Below, piece after piece: positions 5,051-46,225 of a stretch of DNA of 64,000 bases; the stretch's first letter is position 1, and every line of letters starts with the position of its first letter. The notes under the pieces were generated by a model that made no database searches, had not been told where the DNA came from, and saw nothing but the letters and a program-made list of their open reading frames with translations. A program made the translations under genes and the position numbers. Source of the DNA: Nitzschia sp. pyKryTriq1 (taxonomy: Eukaryota; Bacillariophyta; Bacillariophyceae; Bacillariales; Bacillariaceae); the NCBI GenBank assembly GCA_956465555.1, contig OY101117.1, positions 2,108,001-2,172,000 of the forward strand, given 5' to 3'.

Positions 5051-5811
5051 GGAATTGTCCCCCCACTGTAATAAATTAAAATCACGGCGTCCCTCGGTCG
5101 ATTCATTGATTGTTGATGATTCGTTGGTTGGTTGGTTTGGTTGCTTGATTCGATCGACAACTCGCTTCACTATTTGTTCCAATGGTTATTGAATCCTTTC
5201 AACTTCCACTATGACTATTGTTCGCATGGGATGAAGCAATAGTGGTGTCGCGATACTATCAATGATGGAACTGATTAGATCGGATCGAATGTAGTACGGT
5301 ACCAGGTACCGGTATGGAAAATGTAAGCTAGTAGTAGTAGTACTCGTAGAGTGAAAGCAAAGAGCAATGAGTAGCTGAGAGAGCCAGCTCTACTACCGGT
5401 ACTACCCTACTCGGGGTAGTAGTAGACTACTACTCACGAAGTTCGCGCGCGCGGGAAATTCACCAAATCCGCTATTCATAGTGCACCTCAAAATGTCTGG
5501 CCATCCTCCGTGCAAAAGGGTCTACAGTATTTTACAGTTGGCGGGCGAGGGCGGGGCGTGAAAAACGAGGGGGGAATGGGGGGGGGAATTTCGAAGTTGT
5601 GAGAGGTAGAAAATGGGGCGACTACCATACTCCCCTCTTTTAAAATCCACAGATCAAATGATGAATGAATCTTGGTCGAATCTAAACTTCCGTCTACTCC
5701 GACAGCACGAGAACAATGGCTTGAATGGGACATGTTCTCACTTTATTTCTCGTAACTGGTCGGTAATTATTTGTGTTACAGTATTTTGTGAGGCAGAGTT
5801 GAACATTGACG
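5051..5811. other. Intergenic divergent promoter region
   Basis: Spacer between the glycosyltransferase and the Pls-like gene. It holds TACCGGTA-type palindromes and AGT/ACT-rich tracts around 5290-5440 and a G-rich stretch at 5540-5586. No convincing coding sequence is seen. Confidence 0.5.
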
Positions 5812-8800
5812 ATGCCGGGAACAAGACCAGAAAGCCCTGCCCCGCCTGCAGGAGCACATACGCATTCTCGGTCTCCTAGAGGAACTGAAAGCACCAAGTT
5901 GGCGTCCCCTTTGGTCTCTGCGTGTCGGCATCTCCTGCAACCCAATGGCAGCATCAGTGGAGACGCTGTTGCTAATGCGATCTTGCCCAAGTTCCCCGAT
6001 CTGTGTAGTGCCTTGCCAGCAGACTACTTTGCGAGTCGACCCGCTCTTCTTGGCGTGGATGATAGGAAGCCTCTGACACATGCCCGCATCCGAGACTTCA
6101 TCCTGAACGAGCTCGGACCCAGCCTCCACGAAATGGGCTACGGTCGAGGGAATCGTATCGCTCTCGTGCTCCCGAATGGACCTGAACTTGCTCTGGCGTT
6201 GCTAGGGCTCGCTCAGTGGGCTTCGTGCGTACCTCTAAACGCAAATGGTGCCCATGCCGAACTCATAAAGGACTTGCAAGCTGCTAAGGTATCGATGGTC
6301 GTTGGTGTGTCCGAAGACTCAGCCTCCATTCAAGACATGGCCCGCTCCCTCAATATTCCCTTCTGCGGTCTTGTCAAGTCGGAAACAGAAGTCGGCGTTT
6401 TCCGCCTTATTCCGATGAGCCCGCCACATCACATAATGGCGTCTGTCATTCTGCGAGAACCAGAGGACGAATACTGGTGTGCATCGGATACTATATGCCA
6501 GACTAGCACTGGGGGTAGGATCTACGAGACTTCCTCGATGGATCAGTCGGAACCTACCATGTTTTCCAATGATCACGACGACGAGGTTCTCGTGCTCTTC
6601 ACATCCGGGACTACTGGAAACAAGAAGTTGGTGCCCCACAAGCTCGGAGATATCCTTGTCGCGTCTGCTGTCATCAGTGTCAGCTGGAATTTGTCACCAG
6701 AAGACGTCAACTGCAACCTCATGCCACTCTTCCACGTCGGTGGTATTGTTCGGCAGATCTTCGGCCCAACATTAAGCGCTGGAAGCGTCATCTGCTGTCC
6801 ATCATTTGACCCACACATGTTTTGGCAGCTCTTAACTAAGGAGGGCTCCTTGCACAGTTTCACCTGGTACTATGCTGCACCGACAATGCATCAAGTTATC
6901 TTGGCGAGCATGCCCGATGACTTGAAGGAGGTACCAGAATTGCGAATGATCGCCAATGCAGCTGGAGGGCTGTTGCCCTCGCTTGCCCAAGAGCTACGCA
7001 AAACATTCGGTGCCAATGTTCTACCCAGTTATGGTATGACGGAGTGCATGCCTATTTCATCGCCACCATTCTCCTACAAACTCGAGAAACCTGGGACAAG
7101 CGGAGTTGCAGTCGGTCCACAGATCACGATCTTCTCCAACAACTTTGAAGTGCTTCCACCAGGTAGCGAAGGAAACATCTGTGTCAGGGGTCGTCCTTGC
7201 TTTCATGGCTACGGCGGACAGTCGCAGGACGAGTCCTTCCTGGAAGGTGGCTGGTTCAATACGGGTGATCTGGGTTACCTTGACAAGGATGGGTATTTAT
7301 ATATTACTGGGCGGTCGAAAGAAGTGGTCAACAGAGGAGGCGAAATCATTAGTCCCATGGAAGTGGAGGAAGAAGTCCGTCACCACCCAAACGTGAAGGA
7401 CTGCCTCGCGTTCTCCGCTCCACACGATGTGCTACAGGAAATCGTTGGTATTGTAATTGTCCCCAAACCAGACATACCAAGAATTGACTTGCCATCCCTC
7501 CATGAGTTCTTACAAGAAAAGTTGGCGCCTGCCAAGTGGCCCCAGTGCCTCGTTTTCATGGACGCTCTCCCGAAATCACACACCAATAAATTGTTAAGGG
7601 TTAAACTTGGACAGCGTTTAAACTTGCCAGAGCTGAACGATGGTATGTATCCCGTTGAGCGCACATACGAAGCCGCCTGTCCACCACAAGGGACGCCTGT
7701 TGGCGTATCTATTCCTTGCGAGCAAGTTGCAGTCGACATAGAGTACATCCAGGAAGTCCTCCACGACGAGATCGGTCTCGTTTACGACGGCTATGTTGAC
7801 CTCTTGGGCAACGGTACCGCGGAAAAGAGCGAGGAATCCGAAAGGCATTTGATTGTCAGGCCACACCCGACACGAATCGGTGGTATTGTCGTCCACTTGT
7901 CGAACATCGATCGATTACAAGTCATCAAAAAGGCCAGCGGCGCGTTGGATGCCTACTTGCAACCATGTCATATCGTGTCATATCCAAACAAGATGTCAAT
8001 GACAAACCTAAAGAAAATGCCCGACGCCACCGATTCTGTTTCAGCCATTCTCTCAGGAAACAATCGCGTGACATCCGACCCGATGATCCAAGATCTTCAA
8101 AAAATTATACAGGACATGGTTGATTTGGACTGCTTGCCAGCGCCAGACACGAATTTCTTCCACATCGGCGGCTCTTCGTTGATGGCTTCGCAGTTGGCCA
8201 GCAAGCTTCGAAAGAAGTACAAGGTTTCTTTCTCTGGAGCCGACGTTTTCCGCTATAACACATGTCTGGATATTGCCAAAAGGATCCAGTACCAGAAGCC
8301 TGAACATCCCCAAGGTGTGGGCTCACAGAATCTCATGGAGGACGATACTTTGTTGAGTGTGACGTCGAATCAAGGCGCGAACGCCGGAGGGTGCTGGGCC
8401 GACCCCTCCATGCAATGCCCGAGGGATTTGCAAGATACGCGATTAGAAGCGAAACGACTACAACCACAGAACAATCTTTTTGCTGCTCTTGTGCAATTGA
8501 TTCCTGGGTTTGCTTTTTTTCCATTGTTTCAGTTTTCTCGATTCTTCCTTTTCTTTATGAGTCTCCTTACAGTCTTGAACACAATGCCTGGGGAACAGAA
8601 TATACTGAAGTTTATCTTTACCCTGGTAGGGTATCACTTCCTTTGGACATTCATCACACCCTTGATTTTCATTCCTCTCAAATGGATCGTGATTGGTGAA
8701 TACAAGCAAGGGAGATATGCTATGTGGAGCTTCTACTATCTCAGGTGGTGGGTTGTTGATGTCTGCAGGAAAATCATTGGTCGTGGTGTGTGGGGCTCCC

Positions 8801-10968
8801 ACGAGGGCCTCTTGATTTGGTACTACCGAATGCTTGGTGCAAATATTGGCACCAATGTTCGGATTTCCCTCATGGCTGATATCGCCGAGTATGATCTTGT
8901 CACGATCGAGAACAACGCCATGATCGAATACTCGTCCGTCCGTGGTTTTGGAGTGGACAATGGTGCGATGATTCTTGGCCCTGTCCACGTTGGAGAGTAT
9001 TCCAGCATTGGGATCCGATCTGTTGTTGCTCCATTTACAAAAGTTCCCTCAAAGGCACATGTTGGCCCCGCGTCTTCAAGTTACGAGCTCACACACAACG
9101 ACGACCGACATTTGTCTTACCATCGCTACTCTGTTCCTGATCCAAATTTTTGGTGGCGATCTTTCGTGTGTGCGCCGATTTCTTTCTTTGTGGATATGAT
9201 ATCGCACTTACCTGCAATGTTCATTTTGTACGAACTGGTCATGATGCACGAAAGAGCGGACCTTGATAGATCTTTCCGCACCATGAGTGATCTGATGGAA
9301 TGGCTGTGTGAGCCAAGGCGGATTCCTTACTACATCGCTGTCAGAGTTGCGAGGGGCATCCTGGCTCCATTTTTCTACATGGGTGCAGCTATACTTGTCA
9401 AGTGGTGGATCATCGGCGAGTTCAAGGAAGGCCCCAGGGACTTGGCATCTCAATGGCAGCGCTCAAGACATTGGTTGGCATCCCGTCTATTTTGCCGAGA
9501 GAACATGCAGGAAGTTACCGATTTGTTGGGTCGACATTACGAGTCGATTAGCGTCTTGTACCGACTGCTTGGCGCAAAAGTCGGGAAGCGAGTGTTCTGG
9601 CCTGGGCGCCAACCCACCTTTTCAGGCGAGTTCGACTTACTTCAAATTGGCGACGACGTCGTATTTGGTTCTCGCACGGTAATCCTCTGCAGTTCACGGG
9701 AGCGCCTTGAAAGGGTGATTTTTTGTGCCGGTGCAAACGTTTCCGATAATTCCGTTGTTCTACCTGGCGGCATCGTCGGTAAGAATGCTGTTCTAGCATC
9801 TAACACTGTATGCCCAGCAGGAAGATACTTGCCAGAGTCCAGCATCTGGCTTGGGTCGACAGGCGGTGAGCCCATTCTTCTCGAACCAGGAACCGAGGCA
9901 AATGGCAACACACCTATTCTATCATGCAATGTCAAGAAGGACGCACTTCCAATGCAAGGCGACGAGACAACGTTGCGTCCTTTCGGCAAAGCTGTGTACA
10001 ATCGTCAAGCTACTTACTTTGTATGGACGCCGGCCATGATGATTGCGTTCAACGTTCTCAGCGACACATTCTGTCAGATTTTTCATTCGCTTCCGCTTTT
10101 ATCATCAGTACATTTGGGCGGGATTGCGCTGTATGGGTTGCCTTTGTCTTCGAGGGATTATGACGACGCCTACGTGACTGCGCGAGAGCTCTATATGACT
10201 CTCATGCCCATATATGTTGCAATGCATCTGGTGCGACTCGTTCTATGCTTCGCGATAGAGATTGGTGCGAAATGGTTCCTCCTTGGACGTAGAACTGAAG
10301 GGAGGTTTAACTGGGACCAATCTCGCTATGGTCAGCATTGGGAATTATATCAAATCGTCACCAGGATCCGACGGGTGCATCGTATCAGCACACTGGACCT
10401 CATAGCTGGTTCGACGTATATCGCGTGGTATTTCAGGTCGCTAGGATCGAAGATTGGAAAAGACTGCTGCCTCTATCCCACTGGAGGCGACCCCTTTATG
10501 CCTGAGCCGGATCTTGTGACCATTGGTGATCGATGTGTAATAGACCTTGCATCGATTGTCGCCCACTTGAACACACGCGGTAACTTTGAGTTGGTAAGGA
10601 TCAAGATCGACAACGATGTCACGCTACGTTCAAGATCCAGACTCCAGCAAGGTGTCCATTGCGAGTCAGGTTCTATGCTGATGGAAAAGAGTTTAGCACT
10701 CACAGGCGAGATCATCGAAGCCAATAGCGTGTGGCAAGGAGCACCTGCTTCAAGAGTCTTTGAGTACGACCACAGGGACGGCGTTGCCCCGGCCACCCCC
10801 TTCGAAGGATCAGCCTTGCTTCCAACTCTTTCCGGACCTGTTACAGTATCGTCCAACTATGGTACTGCTACCAGTGCCAGTACGGTACGAGGACTATCGG
10901 AAGACGTGACACATTCATGTGCGCTGGAGCTTAGCACTAGCGTCGGGGATTGTTGGATGGTAGTGTAG
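5812..10968 (+). CDS. Pls-like multidomain synthetase: adenylation, carrier protein, three membrane/left-handed-helix modules
   Basis: Single exon, 1718 residues. Residues ~80-595 are an ANL adenylation domain with P-loop SGTTGNKKLVPHK (~263), YGMTECMP (~406), TGDLGYLDKDGYLYITGR (~485) and the C-terminal lysine region SHTNKLLRVK (~588). A second, degenerate C-subdomain-like stretch follows. A carrier domain has the phosphopantetheine site FFHIGGSSLMASQ (~780). From ~895 there are three tandem modules, each with membrane helices, a K-W-x-(I/L)-x-G-(E/R) motif (KWIVIGEYKQG, KWWIIGEFKEG, KWFLLGRRTEG) and a hexapeptide-repeat helix. This A-T-TM-3x order is that of bacterial epsilon-poly-lysine synthetase. 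No classical condensation or thioesterase domain is seen. The PLFHVGG motif in place of an amino-acid-binding Asp motif points to a carboxylic acid rather than an alpha-amino acid substrate. Start is ATG 5812; the frame opens at a TTG 6 nt earlier. Product unknown. Confidence 0.85.
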   Translation: MPGTRPESPAPPAGAHTHSRSPRGTESTKLASPLVSACRHLLQPNGSISGDAVANAILPKFPDLCSALPADYFASRPALLGVDDRKPLTHARIRDFILNELGPSLHEMGYGRGNRIALVLPNGPELALALLGLAQWASCVPLNANGAHAELIKDLQAAKVSMVVGVSEDSASIQDMARSLNIPFCGLVKSETEVGVFRLIPMSPPHHIMASVILREPEDEYWCASDTICQTSTGGRIYETSSMDQSEPTMFSNDHDDEVLVLFTSGTTGNKKLVPHKLGDILVASAVISVSWNLSPEDVNCNLMPLFHVGGIVRQIFGPTLSAGSVICCPSFDPHMFWQLLTKEGSLHSFTWYYAAPTMHQVILASMPDDLKEVPELRMIANAAGGLLPSLAQELRKTFGANVLPSYGMTECMPISSPPFSYKLEKPGTSGVAVGPQITIFSNNFEVLPPGSEGNICVRGRPCFHGYGGQSQDESFLEGGWFNTGDLGYLDKDGYLYITGRSKEVVNRGGEIISPMEVEEEVRHHPNVKDCLAFSAPHDVLQEIVGIVIVPKPDIPRIDLPSLHEFLQEKLAPAKWPQCLVFMDALPKSHTNKLLRVKLGQRLNLPELNDGMYPVERTYEAACPPQGTPVGVSIPCEQVAVDIEYIQEVLHDEIGLVYDGYVDLLGNGTAEKSEESERHLIVRPHPTRIGGIVVHLSNIDRLQVIKKASGALDAYLQPCHIVSYPNKMSMTNLKKMPDATDSVSAILSGNNRVTSDPMIQDLQKIIQDMVDLDCLPAPDTNFFHIGGSSLMASQLASKLRKKYKVSFSGADVFRYNTCLDIAKRIQYQKPEHPQGVGSQNLMEDDTLLSVTSNQGANAGGCWADPSMQCPRDLQDTRLEAKRLQPQNNLFAALVQLIPGFAFFPLFQFSRFFLFFMSLLTVLNTMPGEQNILKFIFTLVGYHFLWTFITPLIFIPLKWIVIGEYKQGRYAMWSFYYLRWWVVDVCRKIIGRGVWGSHEGLLIWYYRMLGANIGTNVRISLMADIAEYDLVTIENNAMIEYSSVRGFGVDNGAMILGPVHVGEYSSIGIRSVVAPFTKVPSKAHVGPASSSYELTHNDDRHLSYHRYSVPDPNFWWRSFVCAPISFFVDMISHLPAMFILYELVMMHERADLDRSFRTMSDLMEWLCEPRRIPYYIAVRVARGILAPFFYMGAAILVKWWIIGEFKEGPRDLASQWQRSRHWLASRLFCRENMQEVTDLLGRHYESISVLYRLLGAKVGKRVFWPGRQPTFSGEFDLLQIGDDVVFGSRTVILCSSRERLERVIFCAGANVSDNSVVLPGGIVGKNAVLASNTVCPAGRYLPESSIWLGSTGGEPILLEPGTEANGNTPILSCNVKKDALPMQGDETTLRPFGKAVYNRQATYFVWTPAMMIAFNVLSDTFCQIFHSLPLLSSVHLGGIALYGLPLSSRDYDDAYVTARELYMTLMPIYVAMHLVRLVLCFAIEIGAKWFLLGRRTEGRFNWDQSRYGQHWELYQIVTRIRRVHRISTLDLIAGSTYIAWYFRSLGSKIGKDCCLYPTGGDPFMPEPDLVTIGDRCVIDLASIVAHLNTRGNFELVRIKIDNDVTLRSRSRLQQGVHCESGSMLMEKSLALTGEIIEANSVWQGAPASRVFEYDHRDGVAPATPFEGSALLPTLSGPVTVSSNYGTATSASTVRGLSEDVTHSCALELSTSVGDCWMVV

Positions 10969-43864: not shown

Positions 43865-46225
43865 ATGGTGATGCCTTCCCACCGTTCCTCCATCCAAGTG
43901 ATGCGAGAGCGTCACGTCTTTTACTTGGTGCCAGCATGCCCGAGTGTCGGTCTCACCTCTGTGGCACTGGGTTTAGTCCGCGCCCTCGACAGAGAGGGTG
44001 TGCCAGTGGGTTTCTTCAAGCCTGTGAGACAACCTGGAGAACGAGGCGAAGAGCGCTCGACACATTTTCTCCGCGCCACTGGGGCTTTGGATCCTCTCGA
44101 GCCGCGCTCGTTTCAAAGCGTTCAAGAGCTCCTCAAGTCTGGCAAGGAGTCTCAGCTTCTTCACGAAATTGTTGAGGATTTCGACGCGTCCGTGAACGGA
44201 TACCGGGTCGTTGTCGTGGAAGGTCTTCAGCCAACGGTGAATCACCCCGACTTAGACTCATGGAATCAAATGATTTTCAAGGCTCTGAGTGCCGAGTTGA
44301 TTATTGTGTCCACCGTCAGCGAAAGAGACGGTGGCATGAAGCACTTCATGAATCGCATCGTGAGCGTAGCAGACCAGTATGGAGGACCGGGAGACTCGTC
44401 GGTCTTGGGTGTCATTGTCAACAAATTCAATGCGCCGATCTCGCAACTTTCGGGGGAGCATCTGGATGAGGCTCCACCAAAGCTAGCCAACCCGACACAA
44501 TTCATCCAGAAAAAGTGCCATAAATTATTCAATGACAGCTTTCCCTTGCTGGGTGCCATTCCTTGGGATCAAAGATTTGTCAGTCCTCGAACCTACGATA
44601 TGGCACGCCATCTGGGTTGTCAAGTGCGATTTGAAGGGGAACTCAAGACACGTCGTGTGGTCGATGTGAAGATCATTGCACGATCTGTCAAAAATATGAT
44701 CTTTTCTTTGCGTCCGGACACCCTCGTGATCACTCCTGCCGATCGTGATGATATCATCATGGCAACGTGTATGGCCGCTTTGAACGATGTGCCTCTTGCG
44801 GGTCTACTGCTGACTGGTGGCTTCGAGCCAGACGAAGCGGTCCTGAAACTGTGTGAAAAAGCATTTACGACGACTGGCCTTCCATTGCTCCTAGTGAACA
44901 CAGACAGCTATGTAACCGGCGCTACTGCGTCAAAGATCGATACAAGAGTGGCATTCGATGATATTGAACGCATTCAAGGAGTGATGGACTTCACTGCGGA
45001 ACATCTCTGCCTCGGAGATGTACTACTCACACGAACTTCTATCACCCGGGAGCCGCGACTTTCGCCCCCTGCCTTTTTGCACATGCTTGCGACAATGGCT
45101 CGAGAACAGCCCCGACGAATTGTCCTGCCCGAAGCAGACGATCCACGCATCATCCGTGCGGCGGCAATTTGTCATCAGCGAAATATTGCCAAGTGCGTAC
45201 TGTTGGGTGTACCGAACGAAGTACGGCGTCTTGCGGACGCTCAAGGTATCAATCTCCCCGACGACGTCGAAATTATTGATCCCACTATGGAAGTGAGAAT
45301 GAAATACGTTGATGCAATGGTGGAACTAAGGAAGCACAAACAGCTGAATAGGCCGTCGGCGCTCTCGCAATTGGAAGATATCACTGTTTTGGCAACCATG
45401 ATGCTGGCATGTGGAGAAGTGGATGGACTGGTCTCAGGTGCCGTGCATTCAACTGCTAATACCGTCCGACCAGCATTACAACTCATCAAGACGCGACCTT
45501 CTGCGAAATTGATTTCTTCTATTTTCTTCATGTGTCTACCGAGCCAAGTGCTAATTTATGGTGACTGTGCTATCAACCCCGATCCAAATGCGGAGGAACT
45601 TGCCGATATTGCCCTCCAAAGCGCGGCATCGGCAGAATCGTTTGGAATTGAGCCCAGGGTTGCCATGATCTCGTACTCCACTGGAAGCAGTGGAACCGGA
45701 AGTGACGTCGATAAGGTGCGAGAGGCCACGCGTATTGCCCAAGAACGACGACCCGATTTGCTGATCGATGGGCCTATGCAGTATGATGCTGCTTGCACAA
45801 TGGAAGTCGCCAAGAGCAAGGCGCCCAATTCGAAAGTAGCTGGTCAAGCCACCGTTCTGATCTTCCCAGATCTCAACACGGGAAATACTACGTACAAGGC
45901 AGTGCAGCGTACAGCCAATGTTGTCGCAGTGGGTCCCATGCTTCAAGGTTTGAGGCGCCCAGTGAATGATCTCTCCCGTGGCGCGTTGGTAGAAGACATC
46001 GTATATACGATTGCCTTGACCGCCATTCAAGCCGAACAAGCCGAACCTGTCATTCAGTTGCCGCCAGCAAGCATCAGTGAAGCAACAAAGGGGCACAACA
46101 AGACAGCTAGTATGCCGTCTGCTCTCGACGACTTCTCAACAATGACGTTAAAGACTATGAGTAATCACGAATCTTTGGTTTCATCACATCACCGAACGCA
46201 GAGTGCTTTTGGAAGAAGTCCATAG
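43865..46225 (+). CDS. pta: Phosphate acetyltransferase, long (E. coli Pta-like) form
   Basis: Converts acetyl-CoA and phosphate to acetyl phosphate and CoA. The single exon gives 786 residues with three domains: an N-terminal BioD-like P-loop region (LVPACPSVGLTSVALGLVRAL, FFKPVRQ; ~18-230), a DRTGG domain (~250-370, ending TSKID-like contact) and the C-terminal PTA_PTB catalytic domain (~415-755) with IVLPEADDPRIIRAA, VSGAVHSTANTVRPALQ, MISYSTGSSGTG and QATVLIFPDLNTGN. The long three-domain form is bacterial-type; eukaryotic PTAs are known in algae and oomycetes. The C-terminal ~30 residues (NHESLVSSHHRTQSAF) are a Ser/His-rich extension. No clear leader is seen, so cytosol is possible. Stop is 92 bp from the convergent methyltransferase stop. 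Confidence 0.94.
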   Translation: MVMPSHRSSIQVMRERHVFYLVPACPSVGLTSVALGLVRALDREGVPVGFFKPVRQPGERGEERSTHFLRATGALDPLEPRSFQSVQELLKSGKESQLLHEIVEDFDASVNGYRVVVVEGLQPTVNHPDLDSWNQMIFKALSAELIIVSTVSERDGGMKHFMNRIVSVADQYGGPGDSSVLGVIVNKFNAPISQLSGEHLDEAPPKLANPTQFIQKKCHKLFNDSFPLLGAIPWDQRFVSPRTYDMARHLGCQVRFEGELKTRRVVDVKIIARSVKNMIFSLRPDTLVITPADRDDIIMATCMAALNDVPLAGLLLTGGFEPDEAVLKLCEKAFTTTGLPLLLVNTDSYVTGATASKIDTRVAFDDIERIQGVMDFTAEHLCLGDVLLTRTSITREPRLSPPAFLHMLATMAREQPRRIVLPEADDPRIIRAAAICHQRNIAKCVLLGVPNEVRRLADAQGINLPDDVEIIDPTMEVRMKYVDAMVELRKHKQLNRPSALSQLEDITVLATMMLACGEVDGLVSGAVHSTANTVRPALQLIKTRPSAKLISSIFFMCLPSQVLIYGDCAINPDPNAEELADIALQSAASAESFGIEPRVAMISYSTGSSGTGSDVDKVREATRIAQERRPDLLIDGPMQYDAACTMEVAKSKAPNSKVAGQATVLIFPDLNTGNTTYKAVQRTANVVAVGPMLQGLRRPVNDLSRGALVEDIVYTIALTAIQAEQAEPVIQLPPASISEATKGHNKTASMPSALDDFSTMTLKTMSNHESLVSSHHRTQSAFGRSP

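Follow-up and report, generated by a model that had tools for sequence, protein, structure and literature searches.

The Pls/PosA synthetases (NCBIfam TIGR02353) comprise the epsilon-poly-L-lysine and delta-poly-L-ornithine synthetases and the fungal Epls enzymes. They have in common with the diatom protein described here an adenylation (A) domain followed by a carrier (T), the carrier serine, a C-terminal domain of three modules that combine transmembrane (TM) helices with a left-handed beta helix (LbH), and a constant His and Glu in module 3. In the available part of PMC10522769, the Pls-type products named are polymers of diamino acids, beta-lysine included; an Asp at position 1 together with a Glu at position 3 is reported for cationic monomers; and fungal and other eukaryotic Pls relatives are mentioned. 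The A domain of Pls/PosA enzymes is of the amino-acid type, whereas that of the diatom protein is of the acyl-CoA-ligase type.

The closest relatives of the diatom A domain are the oxalate-CoA ligases (AAE3, Pcs60, and the bacterial FadD7 group). These are stand-alone enzymes of about 500-550 aa, whereas the diatom A domain is fused to a carrier and membrane modules. LbH (hexapeptide) acyltransferases, e.g., maltose/galactoside O-acetyltransferase, are soluble, CoA-dependent homotrimers; the diatom protein instead carries three divergent modules in one membrane chain, behind a carrier. In diatoms, the proteins classed as 'Other(A)' also have an A domain followed by a carrier. The shared 'Other(A)' protein, as given in the accessible part of PMC7073580, consists of A, ACP, a reductive domain (reductive termination), and KR, and the last two set it apart from the protein studied here; for another three 'Other(A)' proteins of P. 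tricornutum, no domains are given there.

The gene lies in a 64,000-nucleotide stretch of diatom DNA, the whole of which was analysed and is referred to as the window. Residue numbering starts at the TTG at position 5806, with the ATG as residue 3 and a frame of 1720 aa from the TTG. The features are as follows.

5675..10812, plus strand: duplicated block, matching G000:C3:1902260-1907394 at 96.0% nucleotide identity
5812..10968, plus strand: intronless coding sequence, a single uninterrupted open reading frame of 1718 aa from the ATG
6031..7350, plus strand: A core of the FadD7/AAE3/Pcs60 type, aa 76-515, with motifs A3 (LFTSGTTGNKK), A5 (SYGMTE), and A7 (NTGDLG)
6724..6744, plus strand: PLFHVGG, aa 307-313, located where NRPS enzymes have the A4 Asp motif
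7351..7620, plus strand: first A_sub, aa 516-605 (Pfam AMP-binding_C), with the A10-type lysine in PKSHTNK
7621..8076, plus strand: linker, aa 606-757; a degenerate pattern resembling a second A_sub spans about aa 640-740 and ends AYLQPCHIVSYPNKMSMTNLKK
8077..8295, plus strand: carrier protein (PCP), aa 758-830
8176..8178, plus strand: Ser791, predicted phosphopantetheine attachment serine, the same in 71/71 and 9/9 alignment rows
8464..9159, plus strand: C module 1, TM pair (aa 887-926 and 933-962) and left-handed beta helix
9160..10035, plus strand: C module 2, TM pair (about aa 1115-1151 and 1170-1203) and left-handed beta helix
10036..10773, plus strand: C module 3, TM pair (helices aa 1395-1444 and 1459-1493) and left-handed beta helix
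10564..10566, plus strand: His1587 of module 3, candidate catalytic base, identical in 71/71 and 9/9 rows

The first TM helix of module 3 (aa 1395-1444) was modelled with low confidence and starts just upstream of the module boundary. Pfam (E up to 0.1) matched AMP-binding, AMP-binding_C, and one PP-binding domain (PF00550, E 1.5e-10) and nothing else. The whole protein had no Pfam match at this threshold to a condensation domain or to a reductase or thioesterase terminus, in contrast to a canonical NRPS module, which has a condensation domain (Pfam) or a reductase/thioesterase terminus. Separate C-terminal pieces, searched with E up to 10, gave Hexapep-type matches only, all below the cut-off. 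The first-pass annotation had proposed an A domain, a carrier with an intact serine, and three membrane modules with left-handed helices, in this order. Pfam, NCBIfam, and the structure model agree on the order, and the serine is kept in both gene copies and in distant relatives; a carrier serine not shared by orthologues had been named as a second refuting outcome, and no such loss was seen in these rows.

The C-terminal half was compared with Pls/PosA proteins in several ways. The TIGR02353 model (Pls/PosA C-terminal domain) matched the diatom protein with an E-value of 2.6e-57 and 194.6 bits, below its cut-off of 423.1, and scored 626, 675, and 860 bits on three bacterial members. In tblastn, the C-terminal half was collinear with bacterial Pls/PosA (91-95% coverage and 22-23% identity in the best rows). 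A match to unrelated hexapeptide transferases only had been named beforehand as the outcome that would count against Pls-type modules; the alignment to Pls/PosA runs end to end, and the modules proved to be of this type. Modelling of the three TM modules, proposed as a check in the same annotation, gave the three-module TM/LbH fold from an input alignment that held prokaryotic Pls rows. A structure search with the C-terminal model returned LbH acyltransferases, although the LbH of module 1 was matched only via rows spanning modules 1 to 3. No solved structure of a whole C-terminal domain was found: the sequence search (21 matches) gave only gamma-carbonic-anhydrase/hexapeptide pieces, the profile search gave carriers and hexapeptide proteins among the best 60 of 145 matches, and Foldseek and VIA gave single LbH proteins and carriers only, among the matches listed.

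The diatom C-terminal part sits on a tree branch of 4.47 changes, flagged as long. Together with a TIGR02353 score of less than half the cut-off, this branch means that a strong functional shift may have occurred. The diatom protein (1720 aa) is longer than the complete Pls/PosA frames fetched from prokaryotes (about 1300-1465 aa) and differs from them in its 152-aa A_sub-like linker and in having largely lost the QTHLxEDRVMK motif. It is related to the Pls/PosA enzymes and probably works like them. We did not file it as a member, because its A domain is not of their type and its score is below the family cut-off.

The A domain had been read as an acyl/aryl-CoA ligase type lacking the amino-acid Asp motif. 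This assignment stood and was refined to the oxalate-CoA-ligase (FadD7/AAE3/Pcs60) lineage by PDB search, NCBIfam, and phylogeny. The top three PDB sequence matches were oxalate-CoA ligases (E 7.5e-67, 4.5e-64, and 5.1e-59), followed by feruloyl-CoA synthetase and fatty-acyl-CoA synthase at about 6e-40 (best 5.8e-40). The best NCBIfam model was FadD7, with 238.8 bits under a cut-off of 650; two stand-alone bacterial FadD7/AAE3-like relatives, scoring 425 and 417, are also under this cut-off. In a tree of 23 rows (25 minus two from the diatom genome that had branches above 9 and were apparently read in the wrong frame), the diatom pair grouped with these two bacterial proteins (support 100/98) and lay outside the clade formed by 12 Pls A domains (100/100). 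The phylogeny suggested in the first-pass annotation thus separates the diatom A domain from those of Pls enzymes.

The pocket was compared with AtAAE3, in which H214, S289, and H319 are, as we take it from the Arabidopsis structure work, the oxalate-binding residues. At positions H214/H216/S289/H319, both diatom copies have H/G/A/P and both bacterial relatives have H/H/S/H; thus, two of the three presumed oxalate residues are changed. The replacement of S289 by Ala and of H319 by Pro makes oxalate unlikely as the substrate. We infer from these positions a larger, generic pocket that would fit another acyl or aryl acid. A Pro at the H319 equivalent is also found in the aligned feruloyl-CoA synthetase. 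PLFHVGG stands at the place of the NRPS FDxS motif, without the amino-acid Asp. Motifs A3, A5, A7, A8, and A10 are present in both diatom copies, and A8 is of the RGGExISP type, as in the aligned CoA ligases. Since this CoA-ligase-type A8 is kept, acyl-CoA could be released in place of carrier loading. Separately, in Methylobacterium bullatum (L107:1551-6452), a FadD7/AAE3-like ligase lies on the same strand as genes that resemble, as named by eye, 2-dehydropantoate-2-reductase, fumarylacetoacetate hydrolase, and an MFS carrier of the oxalate/formate antiporter kind, which suggests an oxalate operon.

Ser791, Arg980, Glu1567, and His1587 are identical in all rows of two alignments (71/71 and 9/9), the diatom copies included, and Lys959 and Lys1489 are also kept in the diatom protein. 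Around His1587, bacterial QTHLxEDRVMK contrasts with diatom VAHLNTRGNFE, in which Q, T, E, D, R, and K are changed. Two relatives outside the 69-row sample, P0008 and P0009, read HSxEDGAFK and HSxEEGAFK at this place; hence, the bacterial motif is itself variable. In 69 prokaryotic rows, 140 positions are conserved at 85% or more; 72 of these are kept in the diatom protein. The 68 that differ are spread over the region up to and including the carrier (8), module 1 (9), module 2 (23), and module 3 (28). The natural reading is that the reaction centre would be kept and the acceptor or chain-end site would have changed. Given the residues lost from modules 2 and 3, the site that is left may be unable to form amides.

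The linker of about 152 residues between the first A_sub and the carrier had no Pfam match. Against seven bacterial Pls proteins, phmmer gave three matches, only the best of which (0.6 bits) fell within A_sub, in its C-terminal half; the remaining two scored below zero bits. An A_sub HMM built from 64 genes scored the linker at 2.5 bits, a value equalled in 346 of 20,000 shuffles. In hhalign, A_sub was the best of four templates by P-value (P 0.068, probability below 1%), which was not significant. MAFFT laid the linker along A_sub, with the IEYIQEVL helix, IVVHL strand, AYLQP turn, and SMTNLKK in order. Modelled without A_sub rows, the linker formed helix, strand, strand, and helix, with a pLDDT of about 42-54 across the block. 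With A_sub rows, the pLDDT was about 75 and 60 for the first two elements, 43-66 for the second strand, and 66-79 for the second helix. This second model, carrier included, matched NRPS A_sub-PCP didomains over about 160-193 residues (rmsd 3.3 to 9 Å; e.g., 5es8_B, 170 residues, 3.4 Å); since A_sub rows were supplied, it leans to A_sub by construction, and these matches partly reflect those rows. The linker therefore bears a resemblance, faint in sequence and moderate in the models, to a decayed second A_sub. It is possibly the scar of a replaced A core, a view that is unproven but towards which we lean. If confirmed, a decayed second A_sub would be a record of A-domain exchange.

We consider it fairly probable that the protein is a carrier-dependent membrane acyltransferase built on a Pls/PosA chassis. 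Its A domain descends from oxalate-CoA ligases and has a modified acyl pocket; the substrate to be adenylated would be a carboxylic acid other than an alpha-amino acid and, most likely, other than oxalate. This acid would be loaded, presumably in cis, on the Ser791 phosphopantetheine as a thioester, and the carrier would hand it to the membrane domain, in which three left-handed helices are predicted to pack over the TM helices. There, His1587 may act as the general base for attack by the acceptor, most likely an amine. We infer the chemistry after adenylation by analogy with the family. The protein probably arose from a Pls-type synthetase whose ancestral amino-acid A core was exchanged for an acyl-CoA-ligase A domain, with a decayed A_sub left in front of the carrier.

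A rather unlikely alternative is a true homopolymer synthetase whose acyl-type A domain activates a bifunctional acid (e.g., an omega-amino acid) that the C modules polymerise to a polyamide. An omega-amino acid has no alpha-amine, so the Asp would not be needed; a swapped A domain would alter the monomer but not necessarily the polymerisation, and His1587, Glu1567, Lys959, and Lys1489 are kept. The C-terminal architecture is also common to enzymes whose known products, in the consulted part of PMC10522769, are homopolymers. However, QTHLxEDRVMK and 51 near-constant residues of modules 2 and 3 differ, possibly including those that hold the chain end, and the pocket, in which Gly, Ala, and Pro take the places of the His, Ser, and His of oxalate ligases, suggests a generic site more than one shaped for an amino acid.

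The host genome comprises 20 contigs (40.65 Mb). A second copy of the gene (L002), a recent duplicate that is 95% identical, lies 211 kb away on the same contig in the same orientation. The alignment of the copies stops near aa 1669, after which the second copy has a short, unrelated, truncated C-terminal tail. Both frames are stop-free and full-length (1,676 and 1,720 residues from the equivalent TTG). Between the copies (NG86, 1,657 codons), dN was 0.022 and dS 0.080, a ratio of 0.28, with 0.25, 0.28, and 0.38 for the C modules; the 21 codons of the unaligned tail, almost wholly outside this count, had a ratio of 1.97. By these codon comparisons, both copies are under purifying selection. 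The protein is presumably functional, as judged from the A motifs in both copies, this ratio, and a PPTase domain over the cut-off in the same genome (C7:1911798). At least five PP-binding matches were found in the genome, two of which are these genes. Another A-then-carrier frame, with PP-binding beside an AMP-binding match, was observed at G000:C14:721671-722327 (L132); it is perhaps the conserved diatom 'Other(A)' protein described in PMC7073580. Eight silicon-transporter loci over the Pfam cut-off are present in the genome, which makes a diatom host very probable. No biosynthetic gene cluster was seen among the 10 ORFs of at least 349 aa at 22-63 kb of the window (Pfam matched 8/10, in no case to a biosynthetic domain of this sort); the ORFs adjoining the gene were judged by eye only. 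A phosphate acetyltransferase frame with AAA_26, DRTGG, and PTA_PTB domains was observed at 43865-46222 of the window (plus strand), on this diatom nuclear-type contig.

In an exon-by-exon search of the genome, this A-domain type was strongly matched by the two copies (40% identity; E 3.6e-73 and 9e-73) and by no other locus (next best 1.6e-20), as would be expected if the gene were mainly the alga's oxalyl-CoA (or other acyl-CoA) synthetase with the fused C-terminal part as a membrane anchor. We regard this as quite improbable: the S289 and H319 equivalents are Ala and Pro, and the conserved carrier serine, the C-module invariants, and the low dN/dS of the C modules are more than a mere anchor needs.

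Counterparts were sought in a prokaryotic Pls-type sample of the best 80 of 534 confirmed loci, a sample biased towards the seed alignment. The A core was in frame in 70/80 loci, and 10/80 frames do not reach it. The Asp-type A4 motif was present in 70/70 (63 with the standard A3 motif and 7 with a variant A3); thus, no gene with the diatom-like A-domain type was found among the 70 of 80 loci with the A core in frame. L037, L060, and L091 are all of the Asp type. Seven Pls-type plasmid proteins have the FD motif in six cases, and the A domain of the seventh, P0008, is degenerate. A Pseudonocardia plasmid (L025:2733-6983) carries a Pls/PosA-type gene with a degenerate A3 motif and, by eye, apparently three consecutive carrier-type motifs ahead of the C modules. 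The C-terminal type occurred in 3/194 cyanobacterial genomes (E up to 1e-25; open frames of 1332-1342 aa); L086, in one of the three, has the sole A domain read among them. The viral contigs yielded no close relative of the diatom protein, and the genome contigs, searched with a single diatom sequence as the query, yielded 14 pattern matches, none confirmed. No description of this architecture in a diatom was found among the literature matches listed, a set of titles and abstract openings drawn from outside subscription journals and most preprints.

Another rival is a divergent synthetase of cationic poly-amino acids, with a diamino acid as its substrate even though the A domain has changed. 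It would share the overall order A-T-C1-C2-C3, but with the A domain outside the clade of the 12 Pls A domains and PLFH in place of the position 1 Asp, we hold this to be very improbable. A decaying chimera without enzymatic function would agree with the strong divergence, the lost bacterial motifs, and the altered C-terminal tail of one copy, but is scarcely credible with a dN/dS of 0.28 and two stop-free, full-length frames that each retain the A motifs, the carrier serine, and His1587.

The front end of the carrier-dependent acyltransferase that we favour belongs to a family whose substrates are plain organic acids; hence, its product is probably a different kind of compound from the bacterial amino-acid polymers. 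We suggest only tentatively that the protein is a eukaryotic membrane polymer synthetase with a replaced A domain and a fossil A_sub, whose product would be a polymer or conjugate built from a non-alpha-amino acid, e.g., a nylon-like omega-amino-acid polyamide or acylated polyamines. If true, this would be a product type not named for the Pls family in the available part of PMC10522769. The pairing of this membrane polymerase with an acyl-ligase front end would mean that other donors are acceptable to the C-terminal domain, and it would open a way to new amide or ester polymers. Polyamine chemistry in diatoms matters for silica, and diatoms would have a dedicated, duplicated carrier-dependent acylation enzyme.
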